Origin: Erysipelatoclostridium sp. An173
GTDB lineage: Bacteria; Bacillota_I; Bacilli_A; Erysipelotrichales; Coprobacillaceae
NCBI RefSeq assembly: GCF_002160495.1
Contig: NZ_NFKR01000011.1
Span: 1 to 64,000, forward strand
DNA length: 64,000 bases
Direction: 5' to 3'
Positions 13,469 through 47,949 of this stretch are shown piece after piece. Both the position numbers and the translations under genes were made by a program. Below the pieces are notes generated by a model, which saw nothing but the letters and a program-made list of their open reading frames with translations, was not told the origin of the DNA and searched no databases. The stretch's first letter is position 1, and the number at the start of each line of letters is the position of its first letter.

Positions 13469-13544
13469 CTCTCCTTAGCTCAGCTGGCAGAGCAACTGAC
13501 TCTTAATCAGTGGGTCTAGGGTTCGAATCCCTAAGGGGAGACCA
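13469..13544 (+). tRNA. tRNA-Lys (anticodon CTT)
   Basis: 76 bases including encoded CCA. Acceptor CTCTCCT pairs with AGGGGAG, the D arm is GCTC...GAGC, the anticodon arm is ACTGA-CTCTTAA-TCAGT with CTT at the centre, and the T arm is TAGGG-TTCGAAT-CCCTA. The 3' half is duplicated at 47905-47949, so this gene is the prophage attachment site and its 3' end is now supplied by the prophage boundary without change of sequence. Confidence 0.95.
13500..13544 (+). other. attL core (prophage left end)
   Basis: 45 bp running from the anticodon loop to CCA of tRNA-Lys, identical to 47905-47949. Flanks differ immediately outside (GA before and GAGAAA after here; TAT before and TTATAA after at the right end). 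Confidence 0.95.
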
Positions 13545-27078: not shown

Positions 27079-27467
27079 GAGATGTTACTTCATGCGGTTA
27101 TTATAATCGCAAGATAATAGGCATCAACAATGATCTAGAAAACATCAGAAACGAAATGACCGGTATTAAATCATTAGCACCAAAGAATTATGTTATAGAG
27201 AATAAAAGGCCATTCAGTTTGCAAAAGCTTAACAGTCTTATTGTTGATGAAGAAAAACTGATAATTAGTAGAGATTACTATCAGCAAAGAATATTAGAAG
27301 TTGATTATTATTTTAGTAAGTTGCCGTTAGAAATACAGGAAATAATGATAAAGATATATATCGTAGGCATGAATCATGAAAGGACAGCAAGAATATATCA
27401 TTTAGATAGAAGTACTTTGTATCGAAATATCAATAAAGAAATTAAAAAAATATTAGCAGAAAAGTAA
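27042..27467 (+). CDS. ArpU/sigma-70-region-4-like late transcription regulator
   Basis: 141 aa. A helical N-terminal region with DUF1492-like character and a C-terminal sigma region 4-like HTH: LPLEIQEIMIKIYIVGMNHE then RTARIYHLDRSTLYRNINKE. Proteins of this type stand last before the terminase genes in Firmicutes phages and switch on late transcription. AAGGAGAAAG upstream. A terminator follows, so the early transcript ends here. Confidence 0.8.
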   Translation: MEITNADIKQFIRDVTSCGYYNRKIIGINNDLENIRNEMTGIKSLAPKNYVIENKRPFSLQKLNSLIVDEEKLIISRDYYQQRILEVDYYFSKLPLEIQEIMIKIYIVGMNHERTARIYHLDRSTLYRNINKEIKKILAEK

Positions 27468-27654: not shown

Positions 27655-27708
27655 CCCCCCGGGTTTGCTCAAAATCAAGGTGCCATGGGGAAAACGGTGA
27701 ATGGGGGG
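27655..27708. other. Candidate cos site
   Basis: In DNA of very low G+C, C6G3 at 27655-27663 and G6 at 27703-27708 frame a locally G+C-rich stretch with GCCATGGGG. It lies just before the small terminase gene, the usual place of cos in HK97-type Firmicutes phages with 3' overhangs. The exact nick cannot be read from one prophage. Confidence 0.45.
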
Positions 27709-27802
27709 CAATCTTTTGAGAATTGAAATCAAAAAAAGGGCTTTACATCTAGTATAGAAGTTTACAGAACATGTGTAAATGTCCAGGAAAGGAGGTACAA
27801 AG

Positions 27803-42557: not shown

Positions 42558-42729
42558 GATTCCTACTAAATTAACTGTTCCAAAAGATATTGACATGTCA
42601 AATCCTGCGGATATTAGAGAAATCTGGAATGAAATACAGGTTATTGTACCGAAAATAAACGAAGTAATAGATGTATTATCAGAACATGATACATCTTTAA
42701 ATGATGCAGTATATTATCAGGAGGATTAA
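42547..42729 (+). CDS. Hypothetical 60-aa helical protein
   Basis: VPKDIDMSNPADIREIWNEI and VPKINEVIDVLSEHDTSLND form an amphipathic helix pair. GGAGTGATC site. It is the last gene before the first repeat-bearing leader and its end carries that leader's AGGAGG site. Possibly a chaperone or connector for the fibre tips; this is a guess from position. Confidence 0.5.
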   Translation: MAVEIPTKLTVPKDIDMSNPADIREIWNEIQVIVPKINEVIDVLSEHDTSLNDAVYYQED

Positions 42730-42731
42730 AT

Positions 42732-42866
42732 ATGATTGAGAAATTAAAACGCTCGGGTGCGTTGTACACACACACACACACACGGGTATACAAATTTATA
42801 CTATTAAAGAGGTACTTTTTAAGTGCCTTTTTAATTGTAAAAGAAAGTGTGGTGACAAGCATTTAG
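42732..42866 (+). CDS. Leader ORF 1 with (AC)9 repeat, upstream of fibre-tip genes
   Basis: 44 codons from ATG 42732 behind CAGGAGGATTAA. The protein starts MIEKLKRSGALYTHTHT and resembles leader ORF 2 (MIKSVKILSGG). Codons 12-17 are the (AC)9 tract. With nine units the frame stops at TAG 42864-42866, in the loop of a hairpin. With eight units the frame would end at TAG 42890-42892, overlapping the ATG of the fibre gene at 42885. With ten it would stop at TAA 42805-42807, just before a terminator-like hairpin. Likely a regulatory leader and not a functional protein. Confidence 0.65.
   Translation: MIEKLKRSGALYTHTHTRVYKFILLKRYFLSAFLIVKESVVTSI
42766..42783. repeat. (AC)9 dinucleotide microsatellite
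   Basis: Nine perfect AC units inside leader ORF 1. Dinucleotide runs of this length are unexpected in this genome and change by slippage, shifting the frame by two bases per unit. Typical of contingency loci. Confidence 0.9.
42811..42832 (+). terminator. Terminator-like hairpin inside leader 1
   Basis: GGTACTT (42811-42817) pairs with AAGTGCC (42821-42827, one G-T), loop TTT, followed by T5. Translation through it in two of three repeat states would prevent its folding. Confidence 0.6.
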
Positions 42867-42875
42867 ACTTGTCAC
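42852..42875 (+). promoter_or_regulatory. Hairpin abutting the ribosome site of fibre gene 1
   Basis: GTGACAAG and CTTGTCAC pair perfectly around an 8-base loop that contains the TAG of leader 1 (42864-42866). The stem ends directly before GGTGG, the ribosome site of the gene at 42885, so leader translation may open or close this site. Confidence 0.6.
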
Positions 42876-42884
42876 GGTGGTTAT

Positions 42885-43205
42885 ATGACTAGGCTTTACA
42901 ATAAAGAAGGAAATTTACTTCCAGAAAAATTTGTTCAATTAGGTACTAATCAAGGTACCTATACCATTGACAACCTGAATAAATACAAAGAAATTGTTGC
43001 TTTTGGCTGGGGATATGGATGGATTACAATTGGGAGATTAAATTTAACACTCATTCAAAATCCGCATTTTCCAACTGAATCTACAGTATATGAAGCAGGG
43101 GCTGCTGATGGTTATGAAATCTATTTTCAAAAAATGGGAGATAATCAAATTCGAGTTGGACACGGTGGAAATATTTCTAACATTGTTGTTGGTCTAGTCT
43201 ATTAA
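42885..43205 (+). CDS. Fibre-tip protein 1 (paralogue array)
   Basis: 106 aa. Begins MTRLYNKEGNLLP, matching the DKNGN-type start of the following paralogues, then a beta-rich, Gly/Asn-rich domain (IVAFGWGYGWITIGRLNLTL ... NQIRVGHGGNISNIVVGLVY) as expected for a receptor-binding head. RBS GGTGG only 4 bases before ATG and flanked by a hairpin, so translation is probably coupled to leader 1. Role as receptor-binding or decoration protein is inferred from position and composition. Confidence 0.7.
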   Translation: MTRLYNKEGNLLPEKFVQLGTNQGTYTIDNLNKYKEIVAFGWGYGWITIGRLNLTLIQNPHFPTESTVYEAGAADGYEIYFQKMGDNQIRVGHGGNISNIVVGLVY

Positions 43206-43225: not shown

Positions 43226-43576
43226 ATGGGTAGATTTACAGATAAAAATGGAAACAAAATATTAGCTGGGACTGTTTTATACGATGGCGATACTACCAGT
43301 GATTTTATTTTGAATGATGAATATGACAATTATGATTATATAGAAGTTATCTATCGTCCGCATCCTAGCTTAGGTCAGTGTAGTGATAAAATGATTACTT
43401 CAAAATCTGCTAGAATGCACTTAAGCAGTGCACAAACAATCAATGGCGTAACTACAATTTATCGCTGTCAAATGGATTTTGAAGGTAAAAATGTGCGATT
43501 GACAGGAACTAGTCAGGCTATAGGCGGAGCAAGTGCAGGAAATGAAGTAACTATATATAGAGTAATTGGTTATTAA
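43226..43576 (+). CDS. Fibre-tip protein 2 (paralogue array)
   Basis: 116 aa, start MGRFTDKNGNKILAGTVLYD, then a different beta-rich domain (YIEVIYRPHPSLGQCSDKMI, TTIYRCQMDFEGKNVRLTG). No ribosome site is visible; it lies 20 bases after fibre gene 1 in another frame, so reinitiation after gene 1 is likely. The shared N-terminus with divergent remainder is the pattern of exchangeable tips. Confidence 0.7.
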   Translation: MGRFTDKNGNKILAGTVLYDGDTTSDFILNDEYDNYDYIEVIYRPHPSLGQCSDKMITSKSARMHLSSAQTINGVTTIYRCQMDFEGKNVRLTGTSQAIGGASAGNEVTIYRVIGY

Positions 43577-43591
43577 AAGGCACTAAAAAAG

Positions 43592-43618
43592 ACCTCTCTA
43601 AAATAAAGAAAGAGAGGT
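43592..43618 (+). promoter_or_regulatory. Hairpin covering the ribosome site of leader 2
   Basis: ACCTCTCT (43592-43599) pairs perfectly with AGAGAGGT (43611-43618). The 3' arm is the AGAGAGG ribosome site of leader ORF 2, so the site is hidden when the hairpin forms. Confidence 0.6.
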
Positions 43619-43626
43619 AAAAAATA

Positions 43627-43674
43627 ATGATAAAATCAGTAAAAATTCTTTCGGGGGGGGGTACTGTTTACTAA
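43627..43674 (+). CDS. Leader ORF 2 with G9 tract, upstream of the second fibre-tip group
   Basis: 15 codons in the present state: MIKSVKILSGGG then TVY and stop TAA 43672-43674. AGAGAGG is 9 bases before ATG. With G8 the frame would run to TAG 43724-43726, in the loop of the next hairpin. With G10 it would run through the hairpin to TAA 43758-43760, overlapping the ATG of the fibre gene at 43753. The design repeats that of leader 1 with a different repeat type. Confidence 0.65.
   Translation: MIKSVKILSGGGTVY
43653..43661. repeat. G9 homopolymer tract
   Basis: Nine consecutive G in a genome of about 30 percent G+C, inside the start of leader ORF 2. Poly-G tracts of this length slip at high frequency and are the commonest contingency repeat in bacteria. 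Confidence 0.9.
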
Positions 43675-43710
43675 CACAGTATCTTATACCCCTGCTACTA
43701 ACCAAAGAGG

Positions 43711-43740
43711 AGGTGCAGCTAAATAGCTACACACCTTTTT
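43711..43740 (+). terminator. Terminator-like hairpin between leader 2 and fibre gene 3
   Basis: AGGTG-C-AGCT (43711-43720) pairs with AGCT-ACA-CACCT (43725-43736) with a small internal loop, followed by T4. The loop contains TAG 43724-43726, the G8-state stop. GGAGGTGGG and ATG 43753 follow. Confidence 0.6.
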
Positions 43741-43752
43741 GGAGGTGGGTAT

Positions 43753-44046
43753 ATGACTAAATTCAAAAATTCTACAAATCAAACGATACTAGAAACAGGT
43801 ACTACAACTTTATTTTATCAAGATGCTAGTACATTATCTCAAGCAGTTACTTTAGAAAAAGAAGTAGAAAATATTATATTTTCACTAAGAGGAACTGCAA
43901 CAAATCCACGTGATCAAATAGATAGATATTATGCCCAGCTTAACTGGAACAACGATCCTAAGACTGTTTGTTTTATCGCTAAAGGCAGTGGATTTGTAAA
44001 TGGCCACGCTATGCCGTTGGATTTTATAGTTAAATATAAGAATTAG
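43753..44046 (+). CDS. Fibre-tip protein 3 (paralogue array)
   Basis: 97 aa, start MTKFKNSTNQTILETGTTTL, then beta-rich domain (EVENIIFSLRGTATNPRDQI, CFIAKGSGFVNGHAMPLDFI). GGAGG 7 bases before ATG. It ends in TAG 44044-44046, after which the same frame stays open through 8 sense codons into fibre gene 4. Confidence 0.7.
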   Translation: MTKFKNSTNQTILETGTTTLFYQDASTLSQAVTLEKEVENIIFSLRGTATNPRDQIDRYYAQLNWNNDPKTVCFIAKGSGFVNGHAMPLDFIVKYKN

Positions 44047-44070: not shown

Positions 44071-44388
44071 ATGAGCAAATTTAGAGATAAAAATGGAAAC
44101 GTTTTGTTAGATACGGTTAGACTTCTTCTTTATAAGAAGAAAGTTAATAATGTTCAATACGATACTTTTGAAACTGGGTTATACGCTTATGGAAGCTATG
44201 CTACAGGAGCACCGACGGATTGGGCAGGTACAGTATTGAATATTTACAAACCAACCGAGTTTAGAAATGATAGTGATAATGATACTTCTATTTTTAAAAT
44301 CGCATTCGATCGAACCGGGATTTATGCAATGCGATTTAATGAAGAAGGAGTATCACAAACCAGCTGGGTTCAAATCGTTTCCTTTTAG
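44071..44388 (+). CDS. Fibre-tip protein 4 (paralogue array)
   Basis: 105 aa, start MSKFRDKNGNVLLDTVRLLL, then a Tyr/Gly-rich domain (YDTFETGLYAYGSYATGAPT). No ribosome site; in frame with fibre gene 3 across a single TAG, so it may be made by reinitiation or by amber read-through as a two-domain fusion. Confidence 0.7.
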   Translation: MSKFRDKNGNVLLDTVRLLLYKKKVNNVQYDTFETGLYAYGSYATGAPTDWAGTVLNIYKPTEFRNDSDNDTSIFKIAFDRTGIYAMRFNEEGVSQTSWVQIVSF

Positions 44389-44407: not shown

Positions 44408-44764
44408 ATGCCAAATACAAATGGAAAATTAGTAGATAAAAATGGAAATGAAATTTTTCCTATTGAACGTGGCACTGTAGAAAGTGCGGTTGGATCAATT
44501 ACATATGTAAAACGTGGGAAAATTGTAATATATACAATAGATTTTGTAACTTCATCTATAAGCGCAGCAACAAGTGAATTAGCTACTGCCCCATATTTTA
44601 ATAAAAATATGGAATTTGAAGGTGGAGCAATATTAAGAGTAGCTAACACACCAGTTGGATACGCTTGTTGTTCAGTTACAGAGGAAGGTAGAATAAAAGC
44701 AATACACTCTGCATATGATAATCAGGTTCAATTTATCGGCAGTGTAACAGTCATATTAGAGTAA
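44408..44764 (+). CDS. Fibre-tip protein 5 (paralogue array)
   Basis: 118 aa, start MPNTNGKLVDKNGNEIFPIE, then a domain with SAVGSITYVKRGKIVIYTID, a Thr/Ser/Ala-rich patch and VQFIGSVTVILE. The frame is already open from 44267 within gene 4, so a +1 shift near TCC-TTT-TAG (44381-44388) could also fuse it to gene 4. No clear ribosome site. A terminator follows. Confidence 0.7.
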   Translation: MPNTNGKLVDKNGNEIFPIERGTVESAVGSITYVKRGKIVIYTIDFVTSSISAATSELATAPYFNKNMEFEGGAILRVANTPVGYACCSVTEEGRIKAIHSAYDNQVQFIGSVTVILE

Positions 44765-44789: not shown

Positions 44790-44811
44790 ATATTATATGA
44801 AGGTGAGGAAA

Positions 44812-45291
44812 ATGAAAAAAATGGTCTTAAATAATTTGAATTATATGGATGCTTATAATGCGATAGTTGGAGGCATTATTGCTTTTTTTAGTTTTATTTT
44901 TGGTGAGCACTGGTTGTTATTTGCGGTATTTTTACTTCTAAATGTAATCGACTGGATTACCGGGTGGATGAAATCACGGATTGCTAAACAAGAAAATAGT
45001 GTAAAAGGATGGCAGGGTGTCCTAAAAAAAATTGGATACTGGCTAATGATCATGGTTTCTTTTGCGTTATCTGCGATTTTTATTGAATTAGGAGATACGT
45101 TAGGAATTGATCTAGGTGTGACAACGCTATTAGGATGGTTTGTTTTAGCAAGTTTGCTGGTCAATGAAGCAAGAAGTATTGTTGAAAATTTTGTTGAAGC
45201 TGGGTTTAATGTACCAGCTATTTTGATAAATGGTTTAGAAGTAGCAGACAAAATTATTAATAAAGAAAACGAAAATGAGGAGGAAGAATAA
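44812..45291 (+). CDS. Phage holin (holin_4 / TcdE-like family)
   Basis: 159 aa. Three to four membrane segments (GGIIAFFSFIFGEHWLLFAV, DWITGWMKSR motif after the second, WLMIMVSFALSAIFIEL, TLLGWFVLASLLVNEARSIV) and an acidic tail. The FLLLNVIDWITGWMKS plus ENxxxGWxG segments are typical of the toxin-secretion/phage-lysis holin family. ATG 44812 follows AAGGTGAGG; ATG 44797 is an alternative. Makes the membrane hole that lets out or activates the endolysin. Confidence 0.9.
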   Translation: MKKMVLNNLNYMDAYNAIVGGIIAFFSFIFGEHWLLFAVFLLLNVIDWITGWMKSRIAKQENSVKGWQGVLKKIGYWLMIMVSFALSAIFIELGDTLGIDLGVTTLLGWFVLASLLVNEARSIVENFVEAGFNVPAILINGLEVADKIINKENENEEEE

Positions 45292-46747: not shown

Positions 46748-47024
46748 TATTATAATAATCGATATCTGTTATTTTAATAATGGTATCTAAAACTTCATCT
46801 TCATCTTCTTTTTTTTCTAGAATTTCCCAAATATAATTGATCCATTGATTATCAGCGATTGGATAACTGTAACTTCCTTCTTCAGGTTCGATATATTGAG
46901 CTCCGTCCCAAACATCATTGAAGGTACAAACATCTCCAACTTCTAAATCTGGAAGATTAGTTTTATATATATCATAATCTTCATTTTTCATTATTTCATA
47001 TGCTTTTTCAACTGTCTTATTCAT
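46728..47024 (-). CDS. Hypothetical acidic protein, lysogenic-conversion candidate
   Basis: 98 aa, highly acidic (Asp/Glu rich), EKAYEIMKNEDYDIYKTNLP, DLEVGDVCTFNDVWDGAQYI, WINYIWEILEKKEDEDEVLD. The acidic, DNA-mimic-like charge and its reverse position at the prophage edge suggest a conversion or anti-defence gene, but no family is recognised. AAAGAGAGGT site. Confidence 0.6.
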   Translation of the reverse strand: MNKTVEKAYEIMKNEDYDIYKTNLPDLEVGDVCTFNDVWDGAQYIEPEEGSYSYPIADNQWINYIWEILEKKEDEDEVLDTIIKITDIDYYNKKILEH

Positions 47025-47127
47025 TATTTTTTACCTCTCTTTATTATATTTTATACTATGCGGTTAAATTTATAAATAGTGTTTTAAATGTTGCGCTTCA
47101 TTTTGCTTAATTTTTTTCTTTCTTAAA

Positions 47128-47904: not shown

Positions 47905-47949
47905 CTCTTAATCAGTGGGTCTAGGGTTCGAATCCCTAAGGGGAGACCA
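47905..47949 (+). other. attR core (prophage right end)
   Basis: 45 bp identical to the 3' part of tRNA-Lys (13500-13544) including CCA. The 5' half of a tRNA is absent, so it is an attachment duplication and not a tRNA gene. Confidence 0.95.

Follow-up and report, generated by a model that had tools for sequence, protein, structure and literature searches.

Phase variation of bacterial surface genes by slippage in simple sequence repeats is an established phenomenon, as in the poly-G genes of Campylobacter jejuni (PMC6321876, PMC5808241). The opa genes of Neisseria, with their CTCTT repeats, are another case of this type. In phages, the switching of tail fibers and receptor-binding proteins is known to proceed by DNA inversion, represented by the Gin, Cin and Min systems and by the Rin shufflon of bifidobacterial prophages (PMC6109161). 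A further type of phage system, the diversity-generating retroelements, exemplified by Bordetella phage BPP-1, targets the receptor-binding protein of the tail tip. Finally, the control of a gene with a sequestered ribosome-binding site by a leader ORF, through coupling or re-initiation, has been described in work on re-initiation in E. coli (PMC2268962) and on coupling signatures (PMC3711429). Slippage phase variation (PMC6321876) and phage tail switching by inversion (PMC6109161) are, each taken separately, already known.

The locus described here belongs to a prophage within a stretch of 64,000 nt (hereafter the window; 30.0% G+C); the prophage is flanked by a perfect 45-bp repeat (13500–13544 and about 47905–47949) overlapping a tRNA gene. 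The tRNA at the attachment repeat has a CTT anticodon, the tRNA/repeat span being 13469–13544, and a search against Rfam gave no match besides this tRNA at the integration site. The genes around the G9 tract are all small (97–118 aa) and have large tail proteins on one side and a holin-amidase lysis pair on the other: A1 and A2 follow a leader with an AC repeat, while B1, B2 and B3 follow a leader with the G tract (Table 1). Searches with A1–B3 produced neither a family match nor a convincing homologue, protein searches of the window's tail-tip genes in viral contigs recovered the same prophage only, comparing the DNA of the region with phage records gave zero matches, and no convincing sequence relative of B3 was found in PDB. 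The orphan B1 had a poor single-sequence structure model (pLDDT 48), albeit an all-beta one. The tail-tip role of A1–B3 is, therefore, assigned by analogy and rests on position, layout and resemblance to the relatives discussed below. Beside the putative tail-tip array, the ORF list included only the holin, the amidase and small ORFs, with single recombinase-like genes far off; a dedicated search for inverted repeats was not performed.

Table 1. Position of the features discussed in the text (window coordinates, except for the last line)
Feature	Position	Strand	Remarks
Shine-Dalgarno site of the AC leader	42720..42724	+	GGAGG, from sequence
Leader ORF 1, native AC9	42732..42866	+	44 aa; stop 18 nt before A1
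(AC)9 repeat	42766..42783	+	only AC/GT run of at least 7 units in the genome
Hairpin with T run	42806..42832	+	terminator-like; between the AC tract and A1
Second hairpin	42852..42875	+	GTGACAAG...CTTGTCAC; just ahead of the Shine-Dalgarno region
Gene A1	42885..43205	+	106 aa; the coupled leader frame runs over its start codon
Gene A2	43226..43576	+	116 aa; ..DKNGN.. start
Hairpin before leader 2	43592..43618	+	could pair the leader 2 Shine-Dalgarno site (AGAGAGGT) with ACCTCTCT
Leader ORF 2, native G9	43627..43674	+	15 aa, MIKSVKILSGGGTVY; stop 78 nt before B1
G9 run	43653..43661	+	proposed slippage site
Hairpin immediately 3' of G9	43662..43681	+	TACTGT...ACAGTA
Strong stem	43702..43742	+	CCAAAGAGG...CCTTTTTGG; extends into the B1 Shine-Dalgarno site; followed by a T run
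Shine-Dalgarno site of B1	43741..43745	+	GGAGG; predicted mostly paired (0.12 unpaired)
Gene B1	43753..44046	+	97 aa; proposed switched gene
Gene B2	44071..44388	+	105 aa
Gene B3	44408..44764	+	118 aa; ..DKNGNEIFP..
Holin gene	44797..45291	+	anchor for finding related prophages
(AGAGC)23 in L048	5143-5257		long tract of a pentanucleotide unit, placed as in the other leaders

The G9 run starts 26 nt downstream of the ATG (43627) of leader ORF 2, which has AGAGAGG, usable as a Shine-Dalgarno site, in front of it. A preliminary description, made from sequence alone, was correct in the position of the tract, its distance from a start codon with a good ribosome site and the G+C content of about 30%, while the claim that such a run is very unlikely by chance held only in part, the improbability having been somewhat overstated. 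The G9 was the sole G or C run of at least 7 nt in the window and the sole one of at least 8 nt across the whole 2.93 Mb assembly. The base composition, however, predicts 0.009–0.013 G or C runs of at least 9 nt per 64 kb and about 0.4–0.6 per genome: the rarity of the tract represents a moderate rather than an extreme improbability and, taken by itself, is suggestive but not decisive. This expectation, together with the error-prone nature of homopolymers in some sequencing chemistries, is what can be said in favor of a chance run or a base-calling or assembly error in an ordinary tail operon. Such an explanation is all but excluded by the presence of the (AC)9 twin, by the clustering of tracts in the same region of independent assemblies and by the stop-start geometry of the leaders. 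It is its position and company that rule out the G9 as a coincidence: a genome-unique (AC)9 is present 0.9 kb upstream in an equivalent leader, and the relatives have tracts at the same place. An IMG/VR copy of the same prophage, with 100% identity over 10 kb, also had G9 and (AC)9, although it possibly originates from the same assembly and cannot be counted as independent evidence.

The poly-G was also considered as a promoter spacer, since some relatives have it in such a position, and rejected as such in the window, where no promoter-like site is present and the tract falls inside an ORF that has a Shine-Dalgarno site of its own. Apart from the G9, runs of six G or C occur in the window only as a C6 and a G6 at 27655–27708, positioned 43 nt apart between an ORF that ends at 27467 and one that starts at 27779.

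The frames computed for altered repeat lengths behaved in a parallel way in the two leaders. In leader ORF 2, G8 resulted in a 32 aa frame with the end at 43726, which is 26 nt short of B1, while G10 and G7 resulted in frames of 44 and 43 aa, respectively, whose end at 43760 is 8 nt beyond the B1 ATG (TATATGACTAA). In leader ORF 1, AC7 or AC10 placed the stop 77 nt before A1, while AC8 or AC11 moved the end to 42892, again 8 nt beyond the ATG, in this case of A1 (TATATGACTAG). The RNA between the tract and the downstream start folded more strongly than shuffled sequences in both leaders (z = -5.0 for the G9-to-B1 region and z = -4.1 for the AC-to-A1 region). The hairpin at 43592–43618, ahead of leader 2, could mask the leader's own ribosome site; part of it is 84% similar to an unrelated gene start on the opposite strand (47004–47053).

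The tract, the frames, the overlaps, the hairpin potential, the conservation of the layout and the difference in tract length among near-identical relatives (see below) are directly present in the sequences. Their most likely interpretation is that the G9 is a DNA-slippage phase-variation switch, which acts through a translationally coupled leader ORF on tail-tip, probably receptor-binding, proteins; the slippage rate, the coupling strength, the ON/OFF expression and the receptor binding are inferred. According to this model, replication slippage would alter the number of G in leader ORF 2. In the ON state (G10 or G7), the ribosomes would pass through the hairpins hiding the B1 ribosome-binding site and reach a stop 8 nt beyond the B1 ATG, allowing coupled translation. 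In the OFF state, translation of the leader would end 78 nt (native G9) or 26 nt (G8) before B1, the hairpin would stay and the tail-tip genes would be poorly expressed. The (AC)9 leader would be a further switch of this design, independent of the first and acting on A1/A2, being ON at AC8 or AC11, and with two such switches the phage population could hold mixed tip combinations.

Related prophages were gathered by holin alignment, resulting in 50 genome loci and 57 viral loci, 95 of them non-redundant. Within the non-redundant loci, the G/C runs of at least 9 nt, ten in total, were all confined to the 4 kb upstream of the holin (binomial p = 1.6e-5). The tracts were carried by Stoquefichus massiliensis (L091), an uncultured Firmicutes (L043) and the IMG/VR prophages L021, L022, L023, L027, L028 and L125. 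The equivalent place in the relatives was occupied either by G9–G12 or, in Sellimonas caecigallum (L048), by (AGAGC)23, so that three different units (G, AC and AGAGC) are found at the same leader position. All of these, i.e. the G9, the (AC)9, the G9–G12 of the relatives and the (AGAGC)23, meet the criterion of a hypermutable length, taken as at least eight G or several units of 2–5 bases. From the ATG up to the next gene, the leaders of L022, L023 and L027 differed in nothing but the length of the tract, which was G10, G12 and G10, respectively: direct evidence for the tract as the rapidly changing element. This natural length polymorphism is limited to a single orthologous leader group, and the variation in the strain of the window itself is inferred, no reads being available. 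The preliminary description had called the tract a high-frequency slippage substrate in a phage operon and proposed a comparison with relatives as a check: the G10/G12/G10 series and the exchange of units at one position support it, with the high frequency in this particular strain remaining an inference. It had overlooked the overlap of stop and start, the hairpins and the (AC)9 twin, and had not recognized what kind of genes are controlled.

The most extended arrangement was found in L321, with five tandem MANI..R..G genes and four G9 tracts between them. This array is on the reverse strand (4781–2582); of its four tracts, only the one within the end of gene 1 falls in the coupled frame. A scan for the pattern of a ribosome site, an ATG and a G9 was positive in 10 of the 315 genomes of the order, in comparison to 3 genomes with the reversed control, and the same pattern was present in many viral contigs, including leaders of low G+C and N-terminal tracts in tail genes. 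The strict form of the pattern (GGAGG..ATG..G9) misses the window itself, whose Shine-Dalgarno is AGAGAGG. Matches at high G+C, mostly ordinary coding runs, were set aside.

Tracts of a different placement were also observed. Two family genomes had a tract resembling a promoter spacer: a G9 near position 1493 of L339 (TTGCAA-18 nt-TATAAT) and a G12 near position 1489 of L326 (TTGACA-20 nt-TATCAT), hinting at a possible poly-G promoter phase variation in the host family as well. In the viral contigs L149, L157, L169, L198, L203, L204 and L213, a sequence similar to C5-cytosine methyltransferases had a G9–G14 tract near a conserved region; these might represent phase-variable phage methyltransferases.

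The stop-start geometry was examined in 13 leaders (nine from the holin-anchored set and four in L321). In all 13, one of the frames ended between -1 and +13 nt from the downstream start, while shuffled sequences are expected to give 1.8 of 13. The product of the separate p-values was 1e-13, the true value being weaker, since several of the leaders are homologous. The positional criterion of translational coupling, a leader stop overlapping or abutting the downstream start, is fulfilled in one frame of each of these leaders. A remaining alternative is that the leader encodes a functional small peptide which is altered by the tract, with the downstream genes unaffected. In favor of it, a frame of the G8/G11 type encodes short peptides that resemble one another in the window, L021 and L043. 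This likeness, however, partly results from the shared AAAGGNGGTGC motif being read as protein, and what unrelated leaders have in common is the frame that ends at the downstream start codon, making the peptide explanation very unlikely.

The tract-to-start RNA was more structured than its shuffles at z of -2.3 or below in eight of nine leaders, with values from -0.6 to -4.9 in leaders other than the two of the window. The downstream Shine-Dalgarno was less accessible than with a shuffled upstream sequence (21 leaders; Stouffer z = -4.3, Fisher p = 5e-6), except in L021, L022, L043 and L028, where no reduction was found; eight of the 21 leaders came from the pattern search and had been chosen for coupling, not for structure. 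Of the 21 leaders, about 3 have a native tract length in the coupled (ON) frame, fewer than one third (p = 0.046). Such a bias to OFF fits tips that are needed only in some hosts, yet it is unexplained.

A long homopolymer followed immediately by a hairpin, as found in the window and in several relatives, is also what might be expected from programmed recoding, in which a ribosome or RNA polymerase slips on the G tract with the aid of the hairpin to produce a fixed mixture of frames without any switching at the DNA level. This is unlikely: the (AC)9 of the window and the (AGAGC)23 of L048 are slippery for DNA polymerase but not for the ribosome or RNA polymerase, and the length of the tract varies among near-identical leaders. 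Ribosomal or RNA-polymerase slippage is disfavored as the main mechanism because AC and AGAGC units are used at the same site. A second possibility is not a competitor but a variant of the same phase-variable switch with a transcriptional output, where the hairpins would act as terminators or in polarity and the translation of the leader would decide how far RNA polymerase reaches. It remains possible, since T runs follow both hairpins of the window (42806–42832 and 43702–43742). On the other hand, the hairpins in most of the relatives are without T runs, while the stop-start overlap is constant, which points to translation. Because of the T runs, the output step in the window, i.e. coupling, relief of termination or both, is undecided. 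Replication slippage that changes the reading frame of the leader remains the preferred account with either output.

The nature of the controlled genes was better visible in the relatives than in the window. The first gene in L125 matched PF21882, the Gp53-like tail-fiber C-terminal domain, and a DUF859 tail protein of 578 aa, from a genome of the window's genus, has a C-terminal domain almost identical to the L027 gene product, the match to the DUF859 C-terminal domain holding for L027/L022. In L091, the leader was located directly 3' of a DUF859 tail protein. The family present in L021, L022 and L043 had the first 40 residues conserved and the remainder variable, as would be expected of tip proteins whose head varies on a constant mount. 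The structure model of this family was all-beta (pLDDT 75), and its best viral structure matches included tail-fiber proteins, although the likeness was weak; the fold search in PDB with this family gave no match at E <= 0.001, with an H-type lectin and an R-pyocin fiber as weak leads only. By analogy, the controlled genes resemble detachable C-terminal domains of tail fibers and are probably receptor-binding, with no binding data available.

A bolder reading, to which we lean by a small margin when all its parts are taken jointly, is that these loci represent a widespread and undescribed class of phase variation in gut-associated Bacillota phages: arrays of small interchangeable tip proteins, each with its own slippage repeat in a coupled leader ORF. 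One prophage would then be able to produce many tip combinations without a recombinase, from the two switches in the window to the four tracts and five genes in L321. The literature searched contained no account of phage tail-tip genes being switched by repeat slippage, which is weak evidence, as only open-access texts were covered. If true, a single clonal phage population would have a combinatorially variable host range, the consensus assemblies of gut phages would conceal this variation by reporting one tract length, and, in databases, many switchable tail-tip genes would give the impression of being broken or uncoupled.

In comparison with the known systems, the locus shares with bacterial repeat phase variation a repeat of comparable, hypermutable length close to a start codon and three frames, one of which would be ON. 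However, the bacterial repeat is usually inside the switched gene and its carrier is a bacterium, while here a phage tail operon carries the repeat, placed in a leader ORF of its own with a stop that overlaps the start of the gene proposed to be switched. Slippage phase variation is well known as a bacterial way to escape from phages; here a phage seems to apply the same trick to its own host-binding tip. With the inversion systems it would have in common a reversible diversification of host-recognition proteins within a phage population, but, in contrast to them, it apparently involves no invertase or inverted cassettes: repeat slippage needs no dedicated enzyme and would switch several genes independently. 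Similar to the diversity-generating retroelements, the target would be a probable receptor-binding protein of the tail tip. In contrast to them, neither a template repeat nor a reverse transcriptase was noted, and it is the expression that would vary, not the residues; variation of the phage tip would need neither an invertase nor a reverse transcriptase. Finally, similar to the described leader-ORF coupling, the stop and start codons are within about 10 nt of each other and the upstream translation would open the downstream site, but, in contrast to the known examples, the repeat would make the leader heritably variable.
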